NCBI RefSeq assembly: GCF_003344625.1
Contig: NZ_QPKJ02000005.1
Span: forward strand, 248,001-312,000
DNA length: 64,000 nt
Direction: 5' to 3'
Source: Solirubrobacter deserti
Lineage (GTDB): Bacteria; Actinomycetota; Thermoleophilia; Solirubrobacterales; Solirubrobacteraceae
Positions 26,952-41,487 of this stretch are shown piece by piece. The notes beneath the pieces were generated by a model. It had not been told where the DNA came from, did no database searches, and was given only the letters and a program-made list of their open reading frames with translations. The position numbers and the translations under genes are program-made. Position 1 is the first letter of the stretch, and every line of letters begins with the position of its first letter.

Positions 26952-28048
26952 AGCGCATCCTGCACGTGATGCAGCCGCGCGACGGAGGCGTTCCGCAGCT
27001 CGTGACCAACGTGAGCGGCGAGCTCAGCGCGCGCGGCTGGGAGGTCGAGGTCGCCGCCTCCGAGGCGGCCGGGCCCGGCTCGCCGCAGCGCGCGCGGCTG
27101 GAGGCGGCGGGGGCGCGGGTGCACGCGCTGCCGATGACGGGGCTGATCGGCGCCGGGGACGCGCGGGCCGCCGCGCGCCTGCGCGAGTTGGACTCCGAAC
27201 GGCGCTACGACGTCATCCACGCCCATTCGTCCAAGGCCGGCGCGCTGGTCCGCGCGGCGCTGCCGCGCCCCGAGCGGATCGTGTACACGCCGCACTGCTT
27301 CGCGTTCCTGGCCGGGTTCGGCGCCGCGCGCGCCGTCTACTGGGCGGCCGAACAGGCGCTGCTGCCGCGCACCGGCGCGGTGGTGGCCTGCTCGCGCTGG
27401 GAGGCGGCGAAGAGCCGGCGGAGCCTCCTCGGCGCGCACCGGAAGCTGCGCGTCGTCCAGAACGGCGTGCCGGCCTGCGAACGCGTCGAGCCGGACCCGC
27501 GCATCACGGCCCTGCCACGCCCGATCATCGGCTTCCTGACGCGGTTGGACCCGCCGAAGGAGCCGGTGCGGCTGATCGAGGCGGCGGCGCTCGAGCGCTT
27601 TCCCGGCACGGTGGTGATCGTCGGCTCCGGGCAGTTCGAGGGCGAGGTGCGCGAGGCGATCGCGGCCCACGGCCTGGGCGAGCGGGTCCTGCATCTGCCC
27701 TTCAACCCGCCCGTGGAGCGCTTCCTGCACGGCTTCGACATGCTCGTGCTGCCCTCGCGCTGGGAGTCGCTGCCGCTCGCCATCCTCGAGGCGATGGCGT
27801 GCGGGCTGCCGACGATCGCGAGCGATGTCGGAGGGATGGCCGAAGCGATCGAGGACGGGGTCACGGGCCGGCTCGTCCCGCCCGAGGACACGCCGGCGCT
27901 GGCGGCAGCGATCGGCGCGCTGGCTCAGGACCCTGAGGGACTGCGCGCGATGGGCGCGCGCGCCCGCGAGCGCTGGTCCGAGCGGTTCTCGCTCACGCGC
28001 ATGGTGGACGAGCTCGAGGCGGTCTACGCCGAGCGCGCGGCGGCTTGA
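26948..28048 (+). CDS. glycosyltransferase family 4 (GT-B)
   Basis: The product has 366 residues; the GTG at 26948 overlaps the previous stop as GTGA. RILHVMQPRDGGVPQLVTNV opens the N-terminal Rossmann domain; YDVIHAHSSKAGALVRAAL, FLTRLDPPKEPVRLIEAA and SRWESLPLAILEAMACGLPT (donor-binding E-x7-E) follow. It resembles capsule GT4 enzymes that add hexoses to lipid-linked chains. The 3' end overlaps the convergent O-antigen-ligase-like gene by 25 bases. Confidence 0.92.
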   Translation: MKRILHVMQPRDGGVPQLVTNVSGELSARGWEVEVAASEAAGPGSPQRARLEAAGARVHALPMTGLIGAGDARAAARLRELDSERRYDVIHAHSSKAGALVRAALPRPERIVYTPHCFAFLAGFGAARAVYWAAEQALLPRTGAVVACSRWEAAKSRRSLLGAHRKLRVVQNGVPACERVEPDPRITALPRPIIGFLTRLDPPKEPVRLIEAAALERFPGTVVIVGSGQFEGEVREAIAAHGLGERVLHLPFNPPVERFLHGFDMLVLPSRWESLPLAILEAMACGLPTIASDVGGMAEAIEDGVTGRLVPPEDTPALAAAIGALAQDPEGLRAMGARARERWSERFSLTRMVDELEAVYAERAAA

Positions 28049-29391
28049 GCGCGCGCGAGCGCGACGAGCATCCCGACCTGCGCGATGAACGTCGCCGCGA
28101 CCACGTTGTTGCGCGGCGGGTAGTCGCCGAGGCTCGTCATCACGTTGCCCACCATCGATGCGGTGAGCGCGAGTCCGAGGGCGCCCGTGACCGGATCGCC
28201 GCGGGAGCGGACCGCGTGCACGACCAGGCGGCCGACGGCGGCGAGCAGCCAGAGCAGCGCGATCACGCCGGCCGTCCCGAGTTCCACGGCGAACGTCAAC
28301 ACGACGTTGTGGGCGTGCTCGTACGGCTCGCCGCCCTCGTTCAGGCCCGCTGCCAGCGAGATCAGCCGGAAGTTGGCTGCGCCGACCCCGAGCCAGGGGT
28401 GCTCGCCGAAGATCTCGGGGACCGCGCTGTAGATCTTGAACCGCGGATCGTCCCGGACGACGCTGGTGCCCTGCCCGAGGGTGCCCAGCCGCGAGGTGAC
28501 CACCTCCACCTGGTGCGATTGCGACAGCGCCCGAGCGTTCGCGAACGCGAACACGAGCAGCACCGCCAGCGCCACGAACGCCAGGCGGCGGAACGGCGGC
28601 GACAGCAGCAGCACCAGGAAGCTGAGCGCGGCGCCCAGCAGGCTCGTCCGCGACAGCGAGAGCATCAGCGCCACCACGCTCAACGCGGCCGCGACGGCCA
28701 TCACGGCGCGCAACCACACCGAGCCGCGCGTGGCCAGCACCATGGCGATCGGCAGCGTCATCAGCAGGAAGAAGCCCAGCGTGTTCGGCTGGGAGAAGCT
28801 ACCCTGCGCGCGGCCCGTGACGGCGGCGCCTCCCGCGACGAGCGTCTGCGTCCCGCTGGTGGCGATGGCGAGCAACGAGACGAGCCCGCCGGCCAGTGCC
28901 ATGCACACCAGCGTGCGTCGCACCTCGCTGAGCGGCAAGTTGGCCACCTGCGTGCCGATGACCGCGAATGCCGACCACATGACCAGGACCTTGGTCACGA
29001 GCGCGGTGTCGCGCGCGACCGTGAACCCGAGGGCGATCACGAGGCAGATGGCCGCCAGCGCGCGCAGCGCGGGTGGCACCGGAGGCACGCGGCCGAGGAT
29101 CGACCACTCGAGCAGCGTGGAGGCGGCGCTGAGCAGCAGCAACAGCTCCGTGACGCTGAACCCGGCGAGGCCGCCGGCCTTGAACGAGAAGAACTCGAGC
29201 GGCACGGCCAGCAGCGCGAGCTGCAGGCCGAGCACGGGCCGGCGGACGACGGCGATCGCGACCACGATCGCGATCGGCACGACGAACCCGGCCGGCGCGC
29301 CGAGTTGCGCCATCACCATGACCTGGGCGGCCGCCACCATGCACGCGGCGGCGATGCCACCCAACAGCAGGACGCGCGAGCCGACGGTCAC
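28024..29391 (-). CDS. O-antigen ligase / polymerase family membrane protein (Wzy-like)
   Basis: The product has 455 residues with a GTG at 29391 and about 12 hydrophobic segments. The Wzy_C signature includes GSFSQPNTLGFFLLMTLPIA, then a periplasmic loop and HPWLGVGAANFRLI with the later YEHAHNVVLTFAVELG motif, as in WaaL/Wzy proteins. It would polymerise repeat units or ligate the finished glycan outside the membrane. A second family member lies at 34241-36256, so one may be polymerase and the other ligase. Confidence 0.9.
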   Translation of the reverse strand: MTVGSRVLLLGGIAAACMVAAAQVMVMAQLGAPAGFVVPIAIVVAIAVVRRPVLGLQLALLAVPLEFFSFKAGGLAGFSVTELLLLLSAASTLLEWSILGRVPPVPPALRALAAICLVIALGFTVARDTALVTKVLVMWSAFAVIGTQVANLPLSEVRRTLVCMALAGGLVSLLAIATSGTQTLVAGGAAVTGRAQGSFSQPNTLGFFLLMTLPIAMVLATRGSVWLRAVMAVAAALSVVALMLSLSRTSLLGAALSFLVLLLSPPFRRLAFVALAVLLVFAFANARALSQSHQVEVVTSRLGTLGQGTSVVRDDPRFKIYSAVPEIFGEHPWLGVGAANFRLISLAAGLNEGGEPYEHAHNVVLTFAVELGTAGVIALLWLLAAVGRLVVHAVRSRGDPVTGALGLALTASMVGNVMTSLGDYPPRNNVVAATFIAQVGMLVALARAQAAARSA

Positions 29392-29416: not shown

Positions 29417-30874
29417 TCAGCGAGCGGCGCGTCGGGCCGCCGCCTTGCGCTTGGCGGCGGCCTTGGCGCGGGCCTTGGCCTTCGCCTTGCGTGAGACCTT
29501 GGCGGAGACCTTGCTCGTGCTGGGCCGCTTGCGCGTCTTGGCCGGCGGGCGCTTGGTCACCGGCGGCGCGGCCGGGGCCGCGGGCGGTGCCGCCGGCGCG
29601 GGGGGCGCCGGGGTGACGGGCGCGATCGGCGCCACCGGCGCCACAGGCGCGACGGGGGCCACGGGCGCCGGGGTCACCGGGGCCGGAGGCTGCGGGGCGG
29701 GCGGGACGGGGGTCAGCGGGCCCGACGGGACTTGCGGCTGTTGCGGGCCTTGAGCCGGCTGCTCTGGGCCATTCGTGAGGAACGCAGTGCCTTCTTGAAA
29801 CGCCGCCCAAGCGGGCTTGGCCGACCCGTCCCACCGCCTCAGGCCATAGTTGGAGTGCAGGTCGTTGGCGTCGCGGCCGGTGTCCTGGAGGTTGAACCAG
29901 ATCGTCGCGTCCACGAACGACCACTTGGCGATCTGCTGCACCTGCTGCTTGAGGTAGAGCGCCTGCGTCTCCTCGGTGACGCCGTTGTTCCAGCGGTCGC
30001 GGGAACGGACCGTGGACGTGCTGTAGCCGGCCTCGGTCAGCCACAGCGGCTTGTCGTCGCCGTTGGCGAGCATCACGTCGCGCACGGCGGGCACGCCGCG
30101 GATGAACGAGTAGCGGGGGTCCTGGCCGGCGACCGGGTCCAGCGGCGAGTAGTCCTCGCTGTACGGGTGGATCGAGAAGGCGTCGAAGAAGCCCTTGACG
30201 CCGAGCGTGTAGAGGCGTCCGGTGAATGCGTGGTCGGACCCGGACAGCGAACCGACGAGGACGGTCGTGCTCGGGTCGGCCGCCTTGACGGCGGGGTACG
30301 CCGCCTTGACCATCGCGGCGTACGCGGCGGCCTGATCGGGTGCCTTGAAGTAGGCGTCGTGGTTGGGCTCGTTCCAGATCTCCCACGCCTTGACGCGGCC
30401 CTTGTAGCGGGCGGCGACCTTGGCCAGGGCGCTGGCGTACGCGGCGGGGTCCTTCGGCGCGTACCGGTCCACACCACGCGACCACCACTCGCCCGCGCAG
30501 TTCTGCTTGATCGACTCGGGCGCGCTGGAAGCCCAGCACGGCGTCCACGTGAAGGTCAGCAGCAGCTTGATCCCGCGCGCCTCGGCCGCATCCACGAGCG
30601 CGTCCAGGCGGCCGAGGTGGTAGCCGCTGAACGAGCCCGGGCCGGTCTCCTGCAGCGAGGACCAGCCGACGTCGACGCGGGTGATCGTCGCGCCCGACGA
30701 CTTGACGAGATCGAGCTGACGCTTCATCTCGGCGGTGTCGACGTCGCCCCACAGCAGATGGGTCTGCATGCCGGCCAGCTTGGTGGCCGCCGCGGCCGTG
30801 CCCGGTATCAGGCACCAGGCCATGGCGGCGGCGAAGATCGCAGCAAGATATGCGCGGACTCGCGAACGTGGCAA
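29417..30874 (-). CDS. secreted clan GH-A glycoside hydrolase with Ala-Pro linker and cationic tail
   Basis: The product has 485 residues with a TTG at 30874 and GGGAG 6 bases upstream. Signal peptide: LAAIFAAAMAWCLIPGTAAA. The catalytic barrel (~33-345) has the acid/base Glu in AWEIWNEPNHDAYF and the likely nucleophile Glu in LWLTEAGYSTST, as in GH5/GH39-type enzymes. An APVAPVAPVAPIAPVTP linker and then ~45 residues extremely rich in Lys, Arg and Ala (KAKAKARAKAAAKRKAAARR) end the protein. The tail may bind anionic glycan or wall polymer. A c-di-GMP-I riboswitch lies in its leader. Confidence 0.85.
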   Translation of the reverse strand: MPRSRVRAYLAAIFAAAMAWCLIPGTAAAATKLAGMQTHLLWGDVDTAEMKRQLDLVKSSGATITRVDVGWSSLQETGPGSFSGYHLGRLDALVDAAEARGIKLLLTFTWTPCWASSAPESIKQNCAGEWWSRGVDRYAPKDPAAYASALAKVAARYKGRVKAWEIWNEPNHDAYFKAPDQAAAYAAMVKAAYPAVKAADPSTTVLVGSLSGSDHAFTGRLYTLGVKGFFDAFSIHPYSEDYSPLDPVAGQDPRYSFIRGVPAVRDVMLANGDDKPLWLTEAGYSTSTVRSRDRWNNGVTEETQALYLKQQVQQIAKWSFVDATIWFNLQDTGRDANDLHSNYGLRRWDGSAKPAWAAFQEGTAFLTNGPEQPAQGPQQPQVPSGPLTPVPPAPQPPAPVTPAPVAPVAPVAPVAPIAPVTPAPPAPAAPPAAPAAPPVTKRPPAKTRKRPSTSKVSAKVSRKAKAKARAKAAAKRKAAARRAAR

Positions 30875-30911
30875 GACGGACTCCCGTTGTGCGTCCGCCT
30901 ACGCGATGGTC

Positions 30912-30990
30912 CTGTTCGGCAGCCCGGCTGACTCCAGGGGAGTCCCGTGGCTTTGCGCCTCCGCCTCACGACGGATTTGCCCTTTCGCAG
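30912..30990 (-). promoter_or_regulatory. cyclic-di-GMP-I (GEMM) riboswitch
   Basis: On the minus strand the core runs GGGCAAATCC, a P2 hairpin capped by a GTGA (GNRA) tetraloop, the invariant GGCGCAAAGCCACGGG, the P3 arm GACT-N7-AGTC, then AGCCGGGCTGCC pairing back to GGCA. These are the defining elements of c-di-GMP-I aptamers, including the tetraloop and its receptor. Downstream, the Shine-Dalgarno GGGAGTCC (30885-30878) is exactly complementary to GGACTCCC inside P3 (30945-30938). Ligand-stabilised P3 would therefore free the ribosome site, so an ON switch is predicted. A TAGCGT box at about 31012-31007 may be its promoter -10. Confidence 0.9.
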
Positions 30991-31075
30991 GCGGGAAGTT
31001 GGCTGACGCTACCTGTTATCGGCAGGGTGCCCGCTGGACACAAGTCCAAACTTGCGATGAGCGTCCAGAATGTTC

Positions 31076-32518
31076 TCAGCGCGAACTTTCAACGGCCCGA
31101 CCGAGGCGGCCGCCGTCCTGCTCGTCCGGTGGGCCCTCGGCGTAGTAGCCGGAGGTGAACGGGCCCGGATCGACGCGGTTGACGACGACGCCGAAGATCG
31201 TGGTGTGGGAGCGGCGCAGCTGATCCACGGCCTGCTCGGCGAGCCGGCGCTGGGTACGGCGCGCGTCCACGACGAGCACCACGCCCTCGGCCACCGAGGC
31301 GATCAGGGACGCGTCGGCGGCCACCGACAGCGGCGGCGTGTCGTACAGGACGAGTTCGTAGCGCTCGCGCGCGGCGCGGTCGAAGTCCCTCAGCGCCTCC
31401 GACCCGAGCAGCGCTGCCGGGTTCGGCGGCAGCGGCCCGGCGGGCAGCAGGTCCATGCTGGAGTCCGGGACGGCCCACACCGCCTCGCCCATCGTCGCCC
31501 CGTGGACGAGCAGGCTCGAGAAGCCGCGTGGCGAGCTCGCGCCCGCGCCGCTCTTGTTGGCCAGGCTCGGCCGGCGCAGGTCCGCCTCGACCAGCAGCGT
31601 CGGCAGGTCCAGCTCGCCCGCGGCTCGGCCGACGCTGAGCGCGACGGTGGACTTGCCCTCCTGCTCGTCCGAGGACACGATGGCCACGGAGCGCGGCCGC
31701 CGGCCGACGTTCGCGAAGGTGAGGTTGGCGAGCACCAGCCGGAAGCCCTCGGCCGCCGCCCGCGCGTCGCGGCTCTGCAGGCGCTCGCCCTGCAGCAGAC
31801 GCTCGACGTCCGCGCCCGAGCCCTGCGGGATGCGCCCGATGATCGGCAGCCCGAGCACCTCGGTCATCGAGTCGGTGATCTCGAGGCGGCGGTCCAGCCG
31901 GTGCGCGGCCAGCGCGGCGCCGAGCGCGGCGAGCGCGGCCAGCAGCGCGCCGGCGGCGAGGTACAGCCGCGGTCGCGGCCGGACGGGGTTCGTCGGCAGC
32001 GTCGCGGGTTCGGCGACGCTCGCCTTGCCGGTCGAGGCGCCGGCCGACGCGAGCTGGCGCGTGCGCTCCTGGAAGACCTGCGTGTAGGTGTTGGCGAGCA
32101 ACTGCGCTGCCTCGGGCGTCTCCGCCTCGGTGGTGACGCGCAGCAGCTGCGAATCGGTCACGGCCTCGACCGTCAGCGCGTTGGCCGGCTCGGGCGGCAT
32201 GCCGGGCCGGTTCCCCACGCGCCGTTTGACCTCGTCCGCGAGGTTCTGCGTCTGCAGCAGCTGCTCGAACGTGGTCAGCAACGCCGACGAGATCTGCGTC
32301 TGCTCGAAGTCCGAGGACACCGGACGGTCCGGCGTGACGAGCATGTAGCCCGTCGCCTCGTAGGCCGGCGTCAGCGAGGCCGTCAGCGCCGCCACGGAGG
32401 CCAGCACGGCGACGAACGTGCTCAGCGCGATCCAGCGCCGCCGCCAGACGACGCCCACGATGTCATCAGCCGCCGCGCGGCGGCCGGGAGCGGCGCTCAG
32501 GCTGTCAGCGGTCGCCAC
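31076..32518 (-). CDS. Wzz-domain / BY-kinase fusion (polysaccharide chain-length regulator)
   Basis: The product has 480 residues with a GTG at 32518. The N-terminal Wzz domain has TM1 (WIALSTFVAVLASVAALTAS), an extracytoplasmic loop and TM2 (LYLAAGALLAALAALGAALA, ~195-215). The cytoplasmic kinase has Walker A SSDEQEGKSTVAL, Walker A' LLVEADLRRP and Walker B LVLYDTPPL. The C-terminus has only one YY pair (SGYYAEGP) instead of the usual Tyr cluster, so autophosphorylation capacity may be small. It controls polymer length with the Wzy protein and is the likely substrate of the CpsB-type phosphatase at 17811-18572. It overlaps the upstream gene by 14 bases. Confidence 0.92.
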   Translation of the reverse strand: MATADSLSAAPGRRAAADDIVGVVWRRRWIALSTFVAVLASVAALTASLTPAYEATGYMLVTPDRPVSSDFEQTQISSALLTTFEQLLQTQNLADEVKRRVGNRPGMPPEPANALTVEAVTDSQLLRVTTEAETPEAAQLLANTYTQVFQERTRQLASAGASTGKASVAEPATLPTNPVRPRPRLYLAAGALLAALAALGAALAAHRLDRRLEITDSMTEVLGLPIIGRIPQGSGADVERLLQGERLQSRDARAAAEGFRLVLANLTFANVGRRPRSVAIVSSDEQEGKSTVALSVGRAAGELDLPTLLVEADLRRPSLANKSGAGASSPRGFSSLLVHGATMGEAVWAVPDSSMDLLPAGPLPPNPAALLGSEALRDFDRAARERYELVLYDTPPLSVAADASLIASVAEGVVLVVDARRTQRRLAEQAVDQLRRSHTTIFGVVVNRVDPGPFTSGYYAEGPPDEQDGGRLGRAVESSR

Positions 32519-33983
32519 GGGCGAAGAGCAAGGCCGGAATCGTCTTGGCGACGATCTTCAGATCGAGGAGGGGACTCCAATTCTCGATGTAGAAATTGTC
32601 CCACTCGACCCGGTCTTGCAAAGAGGTGTCCCCGCGGAGCCCGTTCACCTGCGCCCACCCGGTCAGCCCCGATTTGACCCGGTGGCGCTCAGGGTAGCGA
32701 TAAATGGCGTCTTCGAACTGCTCGACGTAGTGCGTGATCTCCGGGCGCGGCCCGACCAGTGACATGTCGCCGCGGGCGACGTTCCACAGCTGCGGCAGTT
32801 CGTCCAGCGAGGTGCGGCGCAGCCACGCGCCCACGCGGGTGCGTCGGTCCCCATCGGCCGCCGGCTCAGCGGACATCCCGATCGCGGCCATCGCCCACGC
32901 CGCGTTGCTCTCGCCCGCCGGGCCGGGCTCGCCCGCCATGGTCCGGAACTTGAGCATGTCGAAGGCGCGCCCGTCCAGCCCGACGCGGCGCTGACGGAAC
33001 AGCACCGGCCCGGGAGAGCTGAGCTTGACGGCGATCGCGATCGCGGCCACCACCGGCGTCAGGACGAGCAGCACGAGCGACGCGATCACGCGGTCGAGCG
33101 CGTACTTGACGGTGAACTGCCACGAGTGCGGGTCGGACGGGTCCAGCGAGACGATCGGCAGCGCGCCCAGGTGCTCGACGCGGGTGCGCCGGCCCTCGAC
33201 CTCGAACAGCCGCGGCACCACGTTGACCCCGATGCCCAGCGCCCAGCAGCGCCGGACGACGTCCAGCACGACCGACGGGGGCGCGGTGGAGAAGGCGACG
33301 ATGACGTGCTCCACGTCGTGCTCGGCGACGACCTCCTCGAGATCCCACGAGGCGCCCAGCACCGGCAGCGTGAGCCCGCTGTCACCGTCGAGCGGCTCCT
33401 TGTCGAGGAAACCGATCGGCTGGAAGCCGAACTGCGGCTCGTTGAGCAGGCGCTGGGCCACGGTCTGACCGACCTGGCCGGCGCCGACGATCAGCGTCGC
33501 GTGCGCGGTCCGCGTCGTCGCGCGGCGGGTGACCGCCTCGACGCCCGCGACTCCGAGCCGACCCGTACCGACCAGCGTCGCCATCAGCAGCCACAGGCGC
33601 GCGGCGGAGTCGCCGGCGCCGACGTGGCCCGCCCCGAGCTCGAAGCACGCGGCGGAGATCGCGACGAGCGCCGGGATCGTGATCAGCTTGCGGCGCTCGG
33701 CGCCGGCGGGCAGCGTGGCGCGTGGGCGGTAACAACCGACCGCGGCGTAGGCGGCCATCGTGGCGAGGATCACGAGCGCGACGGTGCCCAGGTCGAGCGG
33801 CTGTGCGCTCCACTCGTGGGCGCCGACGGCGGCGAGCACAAAGGCGATCGCGTCCACGCTCAGCAGAGCGAGCACGCGCGCACGGTTGCCGCGGCGCGCC
33901 GCGGTGCTGGTGCGTCGGCGGCCAGGAGCGTGCAGCTCCAGCGTCCCCGAAAGCATTTCCCTTGTAGCCGTCTGATCGCTCAC
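32505..33983 (-). CDS. polyprenyl glycosylphosphotransferase (WbaP/CpsE-like, initiating enzyme)
   Basis: The product has 492 residues with a GTG at 33983. It has four N-terminal membrane segments, a CoA-binding-like Rossmann domain (LIVGAGQVGQTVAQRLLN) and a fifth hydrophobic hairpin (DRVIASLVLLVLTPVVAAIA). The C-terminal catalytic domain carries SSPGPVLFRQRRVG, FDMLKFRTM, RRTSLDELPQLWNV, GDMSLVGPRPE and KSGLTGWAQVNG. It transfers a sugar-1-phosphate to undecaprenyl phosphate, the first step of repeat-unit assembly. It is the first gene of the operon with the Wzz/BY-kinase. Confidence 0.94.
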   Translation of the reverse strand: MSDQTATREMLSGTLELHAPGRRRTSTAARRGNRARVLALLSVDAIAFVLAAVGAHEWSAQPLDLGTVALVILATMAAYAAVGCYRPRATLPAGAERRKLITIPALVAISAACFELGAGHVGAGDSAARLWLLMATLVGTGRLGVAGVEAVTRRATTRTAHATLIVGAGQVGQTVAQRLLNEPQFGFQPIGFLDKEPLDGDSGLTLPVLGASWDLEEVVAEHDVEHVIVAFSTAPPSVVLDVVRRCWALGIGVNVVPRLFEVEGRRTRVEHLGALPIVSLDPSDPHSWQFTVKYALDRVIASLVLLVLTPVVAAIAIAVKLSSPGPVLFRQRRVGLDGRAFDMLKFRTMAGEPGPAGESNAAWAMAAIGMSAEPAADGDRRTRVGAWLRRTSLDELPQLWNVARGDMSLVGPRPEITHYVEQFEDAIYRYPERHRVKSGLTGWAQVNGLRGDTSLQDRVEWDNFYIENWSPLLDLKIVAKTIPALLFARGDR

Positions 33984-37375: not shown

Positions 37376-37644
37376 GGACCGTGCTAGGCGGGGAATTAGC
37401 GGTGCCCTGTACTCGCAATCCGCTCTAGCGGGGCCGAATTCCCTCTCGAGGGGCACGGCTCCGGGCCAACGTGCGCTGCCACGGCGTCGATGGTCGGGTC
37501 CCGCACGACGTCGGCCCGTGAACCAGGTCAGGTCCGGAAGGAAGCAGCCTTAAGCGGTCACCGGTGGGCGTAGCGGGGTCGCTCGACCGGAGCCAGTGAG
37601 GTGTGCGTCCCCGGAGGCCGACTTCGACAGAGGGTGCACGGTCC
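37376..37644 (+). ncRNA. ffs: signal recognition particle RNA, large bacterial type (4.5S/6S-like with Alu domain)
   Basis: The SRP domain apex GTCAGGTCCGGAAGGAAGCA (37529-37548 region) is the Ffh-binding loop. The Alu domain is present at the 5' end (GGGGAATTAGCGGTGCCC, CGCAATCCGCTCTAGC, GGCCGAATTCCCTCTCGAGG), closely like the Bacillus scRNA. The 5' GGACCGTGC (37376-37384) pairs with the 3' GCACGGTCC (37636-37644), closing helix 5, and a T5 run at 37647-37651 ends transcription. It forms the SRP with Ffh for co-translational membrane targeting. Confidence 0.93.
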
Positions 37645-37650
37645 ACTTTT

Positions 37651-39003
37651 TCAGCACGCGGCGTACAGCACCCAGCTGGCGTTGCGCGCCGTCTCGTCGA
37701 AGTTCCGCGGCACGGCGGCGGTGAGGCGCTTCGGGTCGCGCGGGTCGAGCGTGAAGTTGCGCTCCACGCGCTCGCTGGCGGGGTCGATGTAGCTGCCCGT
37801 CGTGGGCTGCTCGAGCTGCGCGGAAACGATCTCTCCCGGCGGGATGCCCGTCCACAGCGCGATGTGCGGCACCGGCCGGTGGTTGGGCACCGTGACCGGC
37901 TCGCACCCGAGTTCGTCGCTGATCGCGTGCAGGTCGGCGAGGATGTCGTTCTGCGTGTGCATCGCGCTGCGCAGGCTCTGGATCCGGTTGATCTGGCTGG
38001 GCGTGAAGCCGAGCGCGACGGCGATCACGACGGCGCCGATCACCGCCCAGCGGGTGCGCCACGGGTGATCGGCCGGCAGCGCGCGCCAGCCGAACACGCC
38101 CGCGCCGGCGAAGACGGCCAGCAGCGCGGCGGGCAGCAGCAGGTAGCGGCCGAGGATCGGCAGGCCGGCCCCGGCGAGCACGCAGAAGGCGCCGATGGAC
38201 ACGAACCCGGCGGCGATCGGCAGCGCGGCCCTGCGGCGCATGAACGCGAGCACGAGCAGACCGCCCGCGGCCGCGCCGAGCAGGCCCGGCTCGCGCAGGA
38301 TCTCGCCGAGCCTTCGCGGTACGGTGAGCGGGACGTCGTCGAGGCCCGTGATCCGCTGCAGGTCCTGCGCGTTGTCCTGGGTGTCGAGGAGGCTGTGCAG
38401 CGGGTTGCCGGCGATCGCCCAGTCGTGCGCCATCCAGATCACCGGCGCGGCCGCGGCGTACGGGATCAGCTTCAGGTCGCGCTGGTAGGCGGCGTAGACG
38501 ATCGCGAAGCCCCACGCCTCGGGTCTGAGCAGGCCGGCGAGCCCGAGGAGCAGCAGGACCGTGCGCGGGTCCTTGCCGCGCGCCTCGGCGAGGATCGCGC
38601 CGAGGACGAGCGCGACGTACGGGATGTCGAAGTAGGCCCGCACGCCGAAGCTCAGCACGGGGACGCGGGTGATGATCAGCAGCGCGGCGACGATCCCCGC
38701 CGCCGGGCCGAACCAGTGCGCGCCGAGCTCGTACGTGGTCCAGGCGAGCGCGCCGAGGCTCAGGAAGGCGACGAGCACCCAGATCGTCTGGCCGACGTCG
38801 CCGAACGGCGTCAGGAGCATGCCCAGCAGCGTCGCCAGCGGGTGCGGGGTGGGCGCGAGCGGCAGGTCGAAGTCGGGCCGGCGGCCGTCGAGGACGTCGC
38901 CGCCCCACAGCAGGCTGTAGGCCGTGTCGTAGTTCAGGAAGCCCGTGCCGATGAGGGCGTACGCGAGCACCGCTCCGAGCGGGATTCCGATCGCGGCGCG
39001 CAC
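37651..39003 (-). CDS. multi-spanning membrane protein, ArnT/GT39-like glycosyltransferase family
   Basis: The product has about 450 residues from a GTG at 39003. It has about 10 hydrophobic segments. The N-terminal GTGFLNYDTAYSLLWGGDVL contains the Asp-containing first periplasmic loop typical of GT-C enzymes that use polyprenyl-phosphate sugars. A C-terminal periplasmic domain (~350-450) is soluble. An N-terminally longer reading (ATG at 39066) would run into the dnaX promoter and is disfavoured. The stop codon touches the SRP RNA terminator. Sugar donor and acceptor are unknown. Confidence 0.75.
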   Translation of the reverse strand: MRAAIGIPLGAVLAYALIGTGFLNYDTAYSLLWGGDVLDGRRPDFDLPLAPTPHPLATLLGMLLTPFGDVGQTIWVLVAFLSLGALAWTTYELGAHWFGPAAGIVAALLIITRVPVLSFGVRAYFDIPYVALVLGAILAEARGKDPRTVLLLLGLAGLLRPEAWGFAIVYAAYQRDLKLIPYAAAAPVIWMAHDWAIAGNPLHSLLDTQDNAQDLQRITGLDDVPLTVPRRLGEILREPGLLGAAAGGLLVLAFMRRRAALPIAAGFVSIGAFCVLAGAGLPILGRYLLLPAALLAVFAGAGVFGWRALPADHPWRTRWAVIGAVVIAVALGFTPSQINRIQSLRSAMHTQNDILADLHAISDELGCEPVTVPNHRPVPHIALWTGIPPGEIVSAQLEQPTTGSYIDPASERVERNFTLDPRDPKRLTAAVPRNFDETARNASWVLYAAC

Positions 39004-39026
39004 GCCGACGCCGCCTCTCGCGCCAC

Positions 39027-39042
39027 TAGACTCAAACGTCCC
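39027..39042 (+). promoter_or_regulatory. -10 box of dnaX
   Basis: TAGACT (39027-39032) lies 10 bases before the TTG start of dnaX, with no Shine-Dalgarno between; a leaderless or near-leaderless message is likely. Confidence 0.45.
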
Positions 39043-41487
39043 TTGGCCGCTTCGCTGTACCGCCGTCATCGCCCCCGCACGTTCGCAGACGTGGTCGGGC
39101 AGGAGCACGTCGTCCGCACCCTGAGCAACGCGATCGAGCAGGGTCGCGTGCACCACGCGTACCTGTTCGTGGGTTCCCGCGGCACGGGCAAGACGTCCAT
39201 GGCCAAGATCCTGGCGGCTTCGCTGAACTGCCAGAACGGCGGGCCCACCGTCTCGCCGTGCGGGAAGTGCGAGTCGTGCGTCTCGATCCAGAGCGCGACG
39301 TCCCTGGACGTCGTGGAGATGGACGCCGCCTCCAACAACTCGGTCGACGACGTCCGCGACCTGCGCGAGCGCGTCGCCTTCGCCCCGGTCGGCGGCGGCT
39401 ACAAGGTCTACATCCTCGATGAGGCGCACATGCTCACGCCTCAGGCGTGGAACGCGTTCCTCAAGACGCTCGAGGAGCCGCCGCCGCACACGATCTTCGT
39501 GCTGGCGACCACCGAGGCCAACAAGGTCCTGCCGACGGTCGTGGACCGCTGCCACCGCTTCGACTTCGGCCGGCCTTCGGTACCCCAGCTCGCGCACGTG
39601 CTGCGCCGGGCCGCCGACGCGGAGTCGATCACGATCCCCGACGAGGCGATCGCCCTCGTCGCCCGGTCGGCCACGGGGTCCTTCCGCGACGCGCTGGGGA
39701 CGCTGGAGCAGCTGTTCGCCTACTCGGGCTCGTCGATCGCGCTCGAGGACGTGCTGGCCGTGCTCGGCGCCGCCGACTCGGACCTGATCTTCGGCGCCGT
39801 GGACGCCGTCCACGCCGGCGACGCCCGCTCGGCCCTGCAGGCCGCCGCCCGCCTGGCCGAGTCCGGCCGCGACCTCGGCCGCTTCTTCGGTGACCTCGAA
39901 GCCCACGCCCGCGCCCTGATGGTCGTCCAGGTGCTCGGCGAGGTCCCGCCCGAGCTGCGCGTCACCGCCGAGCAGGATGCACGCCTGGCTGAGCAGGCCG
40001 AGCGCGTCGGCCAGGCCGAGGTCGTCCGCCTGATCGAGTTGATCGCCGCCTCGATGCGCGCCATGAAGGACGGCGCCGACGCCCGCACCCAGCTCGAGCT
40101 CGCCCTCGTGAAGGCCGCGACGCCCGACCTCGAGCCCTCCGTCAAGGCCCTCCAGGCCCGCCTCGCCCGGCTCGAGTCCCGCCCGGCCGCGCCGGCGCCC
40201 CGCACGCCCGACCAGCCCCAGACGGCCGCCGGCCGCGCGACCGCGCCGACGTCGGCGGTCCCCACGGCGCCCGCGCCGACGGCGTCGCCGGCCGTCCCGG
40301 CCGCGTCTTCGCCGCCCGCCACCGAGGCGCCGATGCCGGCTCCCGCGCCGGCCGCCCCGGCCGCGTCTTCGCCGCCCGCCACGGAGGCGCCGACGCCGGC
40401 TCCCGCGCCGGCCGCCCCGGCCGCGTCTTCGCCGCCCGCCACGGAGGCGCCGACGCCGGCTCCCGCGCCGGCCGCCCCGGCCGCGTCTTCGCCGCCCGCC
40501 ACGGAGGCGCCGACGCCGGCTCCCGCGCCGGCCGCCGCTTCGTCCTCGCCGCCTGCCAGCGCGCCTTCGTCGCCCCGCGCCGAGGCGTCCTCGCCGCCCG
40601 CCGCTCCGTCCTCGCCGCCCGCCGCCGCGCTTTCGCCGCCTCCTGCCGAGGCGCCGACGCCGGCCGCCGCCGCGACCCCCGCGCCGCCCGACGCTTCCTC
40701 TTCGCCGCCCGCGCCTCCCTCCGACGGCGCCCCGGAGCACCGGTACGGCTCGCCGCCGCCCGCCCGGAACGTGGCGCCCGCGTACGGGGTCTCCGCCTCC
40801 GCCGACGACCCGCGCTACGAGTCGCCCCCCTTCATCGATCCGGGCGCTCCGCCAGCCGCGGGCGAGGAGCCCCTGCGGGGGCGCACGGCGGTCGAGATCA
40901 CGGCCGAGGTCGACGGGCAGCCGATCCAGGTGCGCACGACGTTGCCCGGCGCCGGGAACGTGGCGCCCGAGGAGGCGCAGCAGGTCGCCGACGACGCCGC
41001 GGCCGCGGTCGCGCGCGATCTCGCGACGGAGGCGGACCCGACGCCGGCGGTCGCGGCTGTCGCGCTGGTCGAGCCGGACGTGCCCGCGCCCGCTCCGAGC
41101 CTGGGCGTGTCGGTGGACATCGGTGAGCACTGGCAGGCGGTGGTGAGCTCGCTGCGCGAGGGCACGCCGATGCTGGCCGCGGCGCTCGACGACTGCTCGC
41201 CGGTGCCCGAGGGCGAGGACGGATTGACGTTGCTGTGGCCCGAGGAGTCGGCGTTCTTGAAGAAGAAGGCCGAGGCGCCCGCGAACAAGGACGCGCTGGT
41301 GCAGGCGATCCGCGCGGTGACGGGCTCTTCGCTGCGGCTCGCGTACGAGCTGCGCGCGGCGGGGGCGCCCACTCCGGCCGCTGCGGCGCTCGCGGCGGCA
41401 CCGACGCTTTCGGACGAAGACCTGGTGAAGCGATTCATGGACGAGTTCGACGCCGAACTCCTGCCCGACGAGCCCGAGGAGACCTGA
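39043..41487 (+). CDS. dnaX: DNA polymerase III subunit gamma/tau
   Basis: The product has 814 residues. The TTG at 39043 gives the canonical N-terminus LAASLYRRHRPRTFADVVGQ. Walker A GSRGTGKTS, the zinc module with CGKCESC, Walker B ILDEAHML and the sensor region LATTEANKVLPTVVDRCHRF are all present (~1-365). An exceptionally long Ala/Pro/Ser linker (~385-600) contains a 20-residue tandem repeat; a C-terminal tau-like domain (~640-814, including EHWQAVVSSLREGTPMLAAA) follows. It loads the beta clamp in the replisome. No slippery heptamer of the A-AAA-AAG kind is visible, so a separate gamma by frameshifting is not supported. It is coupled to ybaB (TGATG). Confidence 0.95.
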   Translation: MAASLYRRHRPRTFADVVGQEHVVRTLSNAIEQGRVHHAYLFVGSRGTGKTSMAKILAASLNCQNGGPTVSPCGKCESCVSIQSATSLDVVEMDAASNNSVDDVRDLRERVAFAPVGGGYKVYILDEAHMLTPQAWNAFLKTLEEPPPHTIFVLATTEANKVLPTVVDRCHRFDFGRPSVPQLAHVLRRAADAESITIPDEAIALVARSATGSFRDALGTLEQLFAYSGSSIALEDVLAVLGAADSDLIFGAVDAVHAGDARSALQAAARLAESGRDLGRFFGDLEAHARALMVVQVLGEVPPELRVTAEQDARLAEQAERVGQAEVVRLIELIAASMRAMKDGADARTQLELALVKAATPDLEPSVKALQARLARLESRPAAPAPRTPDQPQTAAGRATAPTSAVPTAPAPTASPAVPAASSPPATEAPMPAPAPAAPAASSPPATEAPTPAPAPAAPAASSPPATEAPTPAPAPAAPAASSPPATEAPTPAPAPAAASSSPPASAPSSPRAEASSPPAAPSSPPAAALSPPPAEAPTPAAAATPAPPDASSSPPAPPSDGAPEHRYGSPPPARNVAPAYGVSASADDPRYESPPFIDPGAPPAAGEEPLRGRTAVEITAEVDGQPIQVRTTLPGAGNVAPEEAQQVADDAAAAVARDLATEADPTPAVAAVALVEPDVPAPAPSLGVSVDIGEHWQAVVSSLREGTPMLAAALDDCSPVPEGEDGLTLLWPEESAFLKKKAEAPANKDALVQAIRAVTGSSLRLAYELRAAGAPTPAAAALAAAPTLSDEDLVKRFMDEFDAELLPDEPEET
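40288..40536 (+). repeat. 60-bp tandem repeat, about four copies, inside dnaX
   Basis: Units of 60 bases encode AASSPPATEAPTPAPAPAAP. Two adjacent copies (from 40381 and 40441) are identical and the flanking ones differ at a few positions (for example an M for T at 40333). The length keeps the reading frame, so copy-number change would lengthen or shorten the linker by 20 residues. Confidence 0.9.

Follow-up and report, generated by a model that had tools for sequence, protein, structure and literature searches.

c-di-GMP is the standard signal for production of the biofilm matrix. Among the c-di-GMP-I riboswitches, a useful case for comparison is Vc1 of Vibrio cholerae, which lies before gbpA. 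In the passages of PMC4744006 that deal with Vc1, lower c-di-GMP reduces expression, i.e. the switch is c-di-GMP-activated; the transcript starts 225 bases before the start codon, and neither a terminator nor an anti-Shine-Dalgarno (anti-SD) sequence is described as apparent. Exopolysaccharide clusters often include glycosyl hydrolase genes, according to an excerpt of PMC9075953.

The switch considered here lies in a window of 64,000 nucleotides from Solirubrobacter deserti, the whole stretch of DNA that was analysed. As in Vc1, set against the same passages of PMC4744006, a c-di-GMP-I aptamer precedes the gene of a secreted (in the window, probably secreted) glycan-acting protein, and neither locus shows a terminator or a convincing anti-SD. 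They differ in the protein concerned, GbpA being a chitin-recognising protein and not a glycosidase from the cell’s own matrix locus. Judged from its sequence, the window RNA is very probably a canonical c-di-GMP-I switch (G20/A47) that binds c-di-GMP and forms part of the leader of a PslG-like gene in a Solirubrobacter exopolysaccharide locus. It adds a new case to the known c-di-GMP-I class; of note is the repeated pairing of such switches with glycosidases of exopolysaccharide loci. A search of open-licence papers found no report of a c-di-GMP-I switch with a PslG-like glycosidase in Solirubrobacter. The features of the locus are listed in Table 1.

Table 1. Features of the riboswitch and its neighbouring genes, in window coordinates
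Feature	Position	Strand	Basis or remark
c-di-GMP-I riboswitch aptamer	30915..30991	minus	RF01051 match; genome C390:278915-278991
GGGCAAA, its G equivalent to Vc2 G20	30976..30982	minus	sequence
GUGA tetraloop capping P2	30966..30969	minus	sequence
GCAAAGCC, its A equivalent to Vc2 A47 (canonical; the GGC variant has G)	30949..30956	minus	sequence
P3 5' arm CGGGACTCC, with CUC as putative receptor strand for the tetraloop	30939..30947	minus	RNAalifold, 33 sequences
P3 3' arm GGAGTCAGCCG	30925..30935	minus	RNAalifold and sequence
Aptamer tail GCTGCCGAA	30915-30923	minus	sequence
P1 extension, 5' strand CCTG	30988..30991	minus	pairing possible with CAGG 30911-30914
P1 extension, 3' strand CAGG	30911..30914	minus	1-2 bases shared with the base of the predicted SD/start hairpin
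Shine-Dalgarno (SD) region GGGAGTCC	30878..30885	minus	exact complement of P3 GGACTCCC 30938-30945
PslG-like glycosidase (GH39/GH5-like), 485 aa, TTG start	29417..30874	minus	Pfam and PDB PslG
Wzz-type chain-length protein, upstream gene	31076..32518	minus	Pfam Wzz 28.8 bits, cut-off 25.5
Bacterial sugar transferase	32505..33983	minus	Pfam Bac_transf 208 bits
O-antigen ligase/polymerase (Wzy_C), downstream gene	28024..29391	minus	Pfam Wzy_C 70 bits

A sequence-only reading of the window had proposed a c-di-GMP-I aptamer at this place, and all the parts that it named are present on the minus strand. The covariance comparison with the c-di-GMP-I family upholds the assignment: the match to RF01051 (c-di-GMP-I, GEMM-Ia) scores 66.9 bits, well over the curated gathering threshold of 35. 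The window aptamer shares with RF01051 a P2 with a GNRA loop, P3, GGCAAA, GCAAAG and the equivalents of G20 and A47; it differs in its short P3 hairpin loop and in the gene under its control, a PslG-like glycosidase. RNAalifold, applied to 33 sequences, places changes on both sides at 15 of the 19 predicted pairs of P2 and P3, and most pairs of P3 show such both-side changes. The P1 extension CCUG:CAGG is formable in all three species in which the arrangement is found.

A second model, RF03167 (c-di-GMP-I-GGC), matches at 30914-30989 with 62.3 bits against a gathering threshold of 59 in a cmscan of the whole window, and it is this match, rather than RF01051, that cmscan retained as the label. 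Taken at its word, the label would make the aptamer a GGC variant with altered ligand preference. This is very unlikely, since the canonical model gives the higher bit score and the RF03167 consensus reads GCGAAG in the cmscan alignment, against GCAAAG in the window RNA. We take the site of this difference to be Vc2 position 47, which agrees with the name of RF03167; a G at that position is presumably what names the variant, and the window, although it scores above gathering, is without it. Vc2 numbers were given to the window positions with the help of the Rfam consensus line and the sequence of Vc2. The A47 equivalent is present in all 143 distinct family aptamers among the matches listed, the window included, and the G20 equivalent in 141 of the 143, the window again carrying G. 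According to an excerpt of PMC11218506, G20, A47 and C92 are important positions of Vc2, while a passage of PMC6456294 states that A20G turns a cGAMP aptamer into a c-di-GMP aptamer. The GGC label was dropped because position 47 is A, where G is required, and because of the bit scores; with G20 in place as well, the window RNA is, by its letters, a canonical c-di-GMP aptamer.

Candidate elements of the tetraloop-receptor contact of the class can also be named. All 143 distinct family aptamers have a GNRA loop on P2 (GCGA or GTGA in 137), and 117 have CTC at the corresponding position of P3; in the window the P2 loop is GUGA and P3 carries CUC, a putative receptor. GUGA-type loops dock on CU:AG pairs, and the CUC probably serves as the tetraloop receptor.

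The gene that follows encodes a protein with Pfam matches to Cellulase (55.1 bits) and Glyco_hydro_39 (35.3 bits), whose closest solved relative is PslG of Pseudomonas aeruginosa (E 4.2e-21 over residues 33-386). The relationship, though seen in sequence, is distant. The NEPN and TE-G-S motifs, whose Glu residues we take to be catalytic, align with those of PslG, and TEAG[YF]S is found in all three orthologues. The window enzyme differs from PslG in carrying an extra Pro-rich basic tail at its C-terminus, noted by eye, and its gene in the c-di-GMP aptamer of its RNA leader; we know of no such leader for pslG. Its N-terminal segment is signal-like, again by eye, and the enzyme is probably secreted, which agrees with the secreted glycoside hydrolase of the sequence-only reading. 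The TTG start codon (30872-30874) is supported by the alignment, since the orthologue in one of the related species (G002) has ATG at the equivalent site.

The neighbourhood of the glycosidase comprises, by Pfam, the Wzz protein, the bacterial sugar transferase, Wzy_C proteins and a glycosyltransferase, and the claim that it is embedded in a polysaccharide locus stands. The Wzz-type protein has 86-88% identity in loci L190 and L191. Elsewhere in the window, a bacterial large SRP RNA (184 bits) occupies 37379-37641 on the plus strand, and a reading frame at 37603-41487, also plus, contains a Pro/Ala-rich tandem repeat (ASSPPATEAPTPAPAPAAPA); its portion past about 39000 presumably resembles DnaX. 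The host genome holds 51 GGDEF matches, of which 50 are over the cut-off. On contig C200 of genome G000, a c-di-GMP-I aptamer (478510-478590) and a GGDEF domain (479473-479946) lie about 0.9 kb apart.

The arrangement of riboswitch, glycosidase and locus is kept in two other Solirubrobacter species, G003 and G002, whose glycosidases are 78% and 73% identical to that of the window. Across the three species the block from a putative -10 element (GATAAC, by eye) into P3 is nearly invariant. No orthologue of the glycosidase was seen in G004, G005 or G006, where the top match is merely 29-40% identical; a search of the relatives’ contigs gave at least one close orthologue and at least six distant proteins among the matches listed. 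G004 and G005 have, instead, a c-di-GMP-I aptamer ahead of an unrelated GHL15-type glycosidase (L030 and L020). When the window proteins were compared with these genomes by tblastn, a glycosyltransferase match adjoined the GHL15 locus in both, and a further match lay within about 4 kb of it, to a sugar transferase in G004 and Wzz-like in G005. In G006 four aptamers were found, and their downstream genes belong to the CAP cluster (two), the S8 cluster and the pilin cluster. Five of six Solirubrobacter species thus show the link between sensor, glycosidase and exopolysaccharide, the enzymes being unrelated (PslG-like in three, GHL15 in two), and the earlier suggestion of a connection between c-di-GMP and glycan remodelling gains from this recurrence.

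Beyond these species, c-di-GMP-I matches are widespread. The host genome has six; at least one is present in all seven genomes of the genus and, under stricter filters, in 89 of 146 genomes of the taxonomic family, in which the number of switches per genome ranges from 0 to 10. For comparative purposes 148 aptamers, among the matches listed, were relocated with a model built from 33; the loci of a genome of the same species (G001) were excluded. A start codon was found for 145, and 137 were used, the others being dropped for lack of a start (3), lack of an SD core (4), impossible spacing (1) or as duplicates (3). Starts and SDs were picked by our own scoring script, not by annotation. Switches whose aptamer and start are over 16 bases apart form the far class (97 of 137), and the remaining 40 the near class.

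The first genes after the 145 aptamers encode mostly secreted or surface proteins, judged from their N-termini by eye. Single-linkage clustering of these genes gave a cluster of 29 that includes type IV pilin-like members, two of 17 (one with CAP-domain members, the other of unknown kind), one of 11 with GHL15 glycosidases and one of 9 with S8 subtilase; smaller clusters include a polysaccharide lyase (Pfam, ten representatives). In the GHL15 cluster (L020, L030, L041, L050 and others) all four representatives are GHL15-type by Pfam, and the start codon lies just 9-13 bases past the aptamer in 9 of 11. One gene of the S8 subtilase cluster is preceded by tandem c-di-GMP-I aptamers (L114, G074:C124, 801-881 and 894-970, minus strand) with a gap of 12 bases. 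By eye, the leaders of the S8 subtilase class (L008, L026, L029 and their orthologues) place the SD in the loop of a hairpin, GGCAC-AAGGAG-GUGCC; the UUUCAA segment ahead of this hairpin might pair either with a UUGAAA further downstream or with the P1 flank.

How the aptamer might control the gene was first addressed by the sequence-only reading, which proposed a visible ON mechanism: without ligand, the P3 5' arm GGACUCCC would pair with the SD (GGGAGUCC), and c-di-GMP, by stabilising P3, would free it. The SD region ends 3 bases before TTG (6 bases from the GGGAG core), and the exact 8-base complementarity to P3 on which the proposal was built was confirmed. Set against foreign P3 arms, the window’s own P3 ranks at 0.014, and an ensemble in which the pairing is enforced is just 2.5 kcal/mol above one in which the aptamer is enforced (-68.5 vs -71.0). 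The enforced state is, however, 6.9 kcal/mol above the free ensemble (-68.5 vs -75.4), and for the free RNA of each of the three species SD:P3 pairing has a predicted probability of 0.00. When P3 is forbidden (20 CDS bases), the penalty is 19.1 kcal/mol in the window, 11.7 in G003 and 12.6 in G002, and even then the best fold has no P3-SD pairing. The reading had named beforehand a lack of conserved SD-P3 pairing in relatives as evidence against the exchange; the orthologues (L015 and L022) keep just 5 contiguous WC pairs in G002 and 3 in G003 against the 8 of the window. The P3 arm is CGGGACTCC in both the window and G002 and CGGGACTCA in G003, and for the SD region the window has GGGAGTCC and the other two have GGGAGGTC; the own P3 ranks at 0.33 in G002 and 0.96 in G003. 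In the other copies of the host genome the longest WC runs between P3 and SD are 4, 5, 4, 4 and 4.

The family-wide comparison points the same way. In 60 rounds of permutation over the 137 riboswitches, 0.54% of P3/SD pairs gave a WC run of at least 8, so that about 0.7 such cases are expected and a single exact 8-mer is weak evidence alone; three were seen, namely the window (L007), L038 and L039. The mean WC run was 3.88 in real pairs vs 3.76 (sd 0.06) in permuted ones, a value reached by 2 of 60 permutations; the mean P3:SD energy of real pairs was no better than that of permuted pairs, 45 of 60 permutations reaching it. Ranks of 0.05 or below against the arms of other genera occurred in 11 of 97 far switches (4.9 expected) and 4 of 40 near switches (2 expected). 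This enrichment was largely gone once relatives were collapsed so that each combination of genus and gene family was represented by a single far-class switch (3.0 of 41, with 2.1 expected). Five of the 97 far switches and three of the 40 near ones have a predicted SD:P3 probability above 0.5, but leaders swapped between switches exceed this value as often (7.0% far, 4.8% near); the family-wide probabilities for own vs swapped leaders were 0.051 vs 0.077 in the far class and 0.072 vs 0.057 in the near class.

Long matches do recur in two places: in genus-group g10, with 9 bp in L039 and 8 in L038 (9 by eye), and in the g19 paralogues L099, L102 and L109 of G099, where about 9-10 bp with one G-U, counted by eye, accompany predicted SD:P3 probabilities of 0.99, 0.71 and 0.71. 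The SD contained GAG in 97 of the 137 switches, and 86 of them were cross-tabulated by P3 base and SD base; P3 = A with SD = T alone stands out (4 of 8, three from one genus-group). The CUC:GAG core of the match comes largely free, because CTC is typical of P3 whatever the SD, and the remaining bases are the addition of this species. Far-class native leaders lean slightly to ON, as the exchange would have it. The orthologue runs, the permutations, the folding and the swapped leaders all stand against it, and it was rejected as a demonstrated mechanism. That it operates at the window gene is improbable, and it is unlikely to be the mechanism of a conserved function; the match could be a recent local feature of the window species.

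Binding of c-di-GMP to the aptamer in the 5' leader of the glycosidase gene would instead act on translation initiation in some other way. Translational control is likely because no terminator-like site for intrinsic termination was found in 30700-31200 and the SD lies only 29 bases past the aptamer. In free folds of all three species, a hairpin starting at or just after CAGGACC encloses the SD and the start codon. The aptamer with its P1 extension (CCUG:CAGG) would compete with this hairpin, and ligand-driven competition would open it and turn the gene ON, such that at high c-di-GMP the enzyme would be added while the matrix is under construction. In the window, enforcing aptamer and P1 lowers the predicted cost of opening the SD-to-start region from 10.0 to 6.6 kcal/mol with 35 CDS bases and from 7.3 to 6.1 with 60; with the aptamer alone, the sign varies with construct length. 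The orthologues in G002 and G003 show no such drop, and their SD hairpin persists under enforced P1, on account of which this mechanism in its complete form is unlikely. Relative to shuffles, the stability of the SD hairpin has z values of -0.56 (window), -1.98 (G003) and -0.41 (G002), i.e. it is no more stable than shuffles in two of the three species. An anti-SD in the 5' leader, suggested by eye (CUUCCCG with CGGGAG(G)), was discarded, the predicted probability of SD pairing with the upstream 25 bases being 0.00 in the three species. Nor does the segment adjacent to the aptamer show any coupling to the SD across the family; for the stretch from -30 to -16 the count was 4.3 of 41 vs 2.1 expected, and for two P2 segments it was 4.6 and 4.3.

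The opposite direction also has points in its favour; here the aptamer with its ligand, together with the flanks, would conceal the SD or the start codon, and low c-di-GMP, as in dispersal, would release the glycosidase. A transcriptional c-di-GMP-I OFF switch exists in Cd1, as described in part of PMC9262584, and a matrix-degrading enzyme made at low c-di-GMP would suit dispersal. With 35 CDS bases, opening the SD alone in the window is predicted to cost 3.8 kcal/mol in the free RNA and 5.4 with the aptamer enforced, a state in which a 9-bp helix, CCGCCUGCG:CGUAGGCGG, links the leader to the post-aptamer region. With P1 enforced as well, however, the cost is 3.7, and the SD-to-start region of the window opens more easily. 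In the orthologues the 9-bp helix is absent from the best folds and the effect is small or nil: the SD costs the same free and bound with aptamer and P1 (4.0 vs 4.0 in G003, 1.1 vs 1.1 in G002; 35 CDS bases), and the change is at most 0.4 over three CDS lengths, although in shorter constructs the G002 SD becomes up to 1.6 harder to open. The far-class signal in the family also leans to ON: the SD is freed, by more than 1 kcal/mol, in 21 of 97 native leaders vs 10% of swapped leaders and hidden in 11 of 97 vs 15% (MWU p 0.016, kinship ignored). In the near class native leaders are evenly divided, 11 ON and 9 OFF of 40 (p 0.88). Repression by ligand is possible but doubtful. Control at a step other than initiation, by an effect of the ligand on Rho-dependent termination or on the stability of the operon mRNA, would fit the same want of an intrinsic terminator and of a convincing anti-SD, and Vc1 before gbpA has, in the passages of PMC4744006 on it, a similarly unclear mechanism; the short distance from aptamer to SD fits initiation control better, and control of this kind seems rather unlikely. 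Predicted folding, then, gives no clear switch, whether ON or OFF. ON is slightly favoured over OFF because of the weak native-leader signal in the far class, one of two classes, and we hold, with low confidence, that ligand binding would turn the gene on.

A much broader reading may be drawn. In this actinobacterial family, c-di-GMP-I switches would serve generally to coordinate secreted enzymes that cut glycans with matrix synthesis, and would have been recruited independently by two or more glycosidase families that are unrelated and lie in exopolysaccharide loci (PslG-like and GHL15); in the window species, P3 would recently have gained a dual use, as tetraloop receptor and as SD mask, giving ON without a separate expression platform. 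Taken jointly, these propositions have little chance of holding. The RNA sensor would place a matrix-type glycosidase under the matrix signal, inside a polysaccharide-making locus, in three Solirubrobacter species. This raises the question of whether the enzyme helps to build the matrix, as it would if the switch is ON, or to dissolve it, as it would if the switch is OFF. With its range of switch numbers per genome, the taxonomic family, in which similar aptamers are joined to different leaders, offers a good system for such questions.
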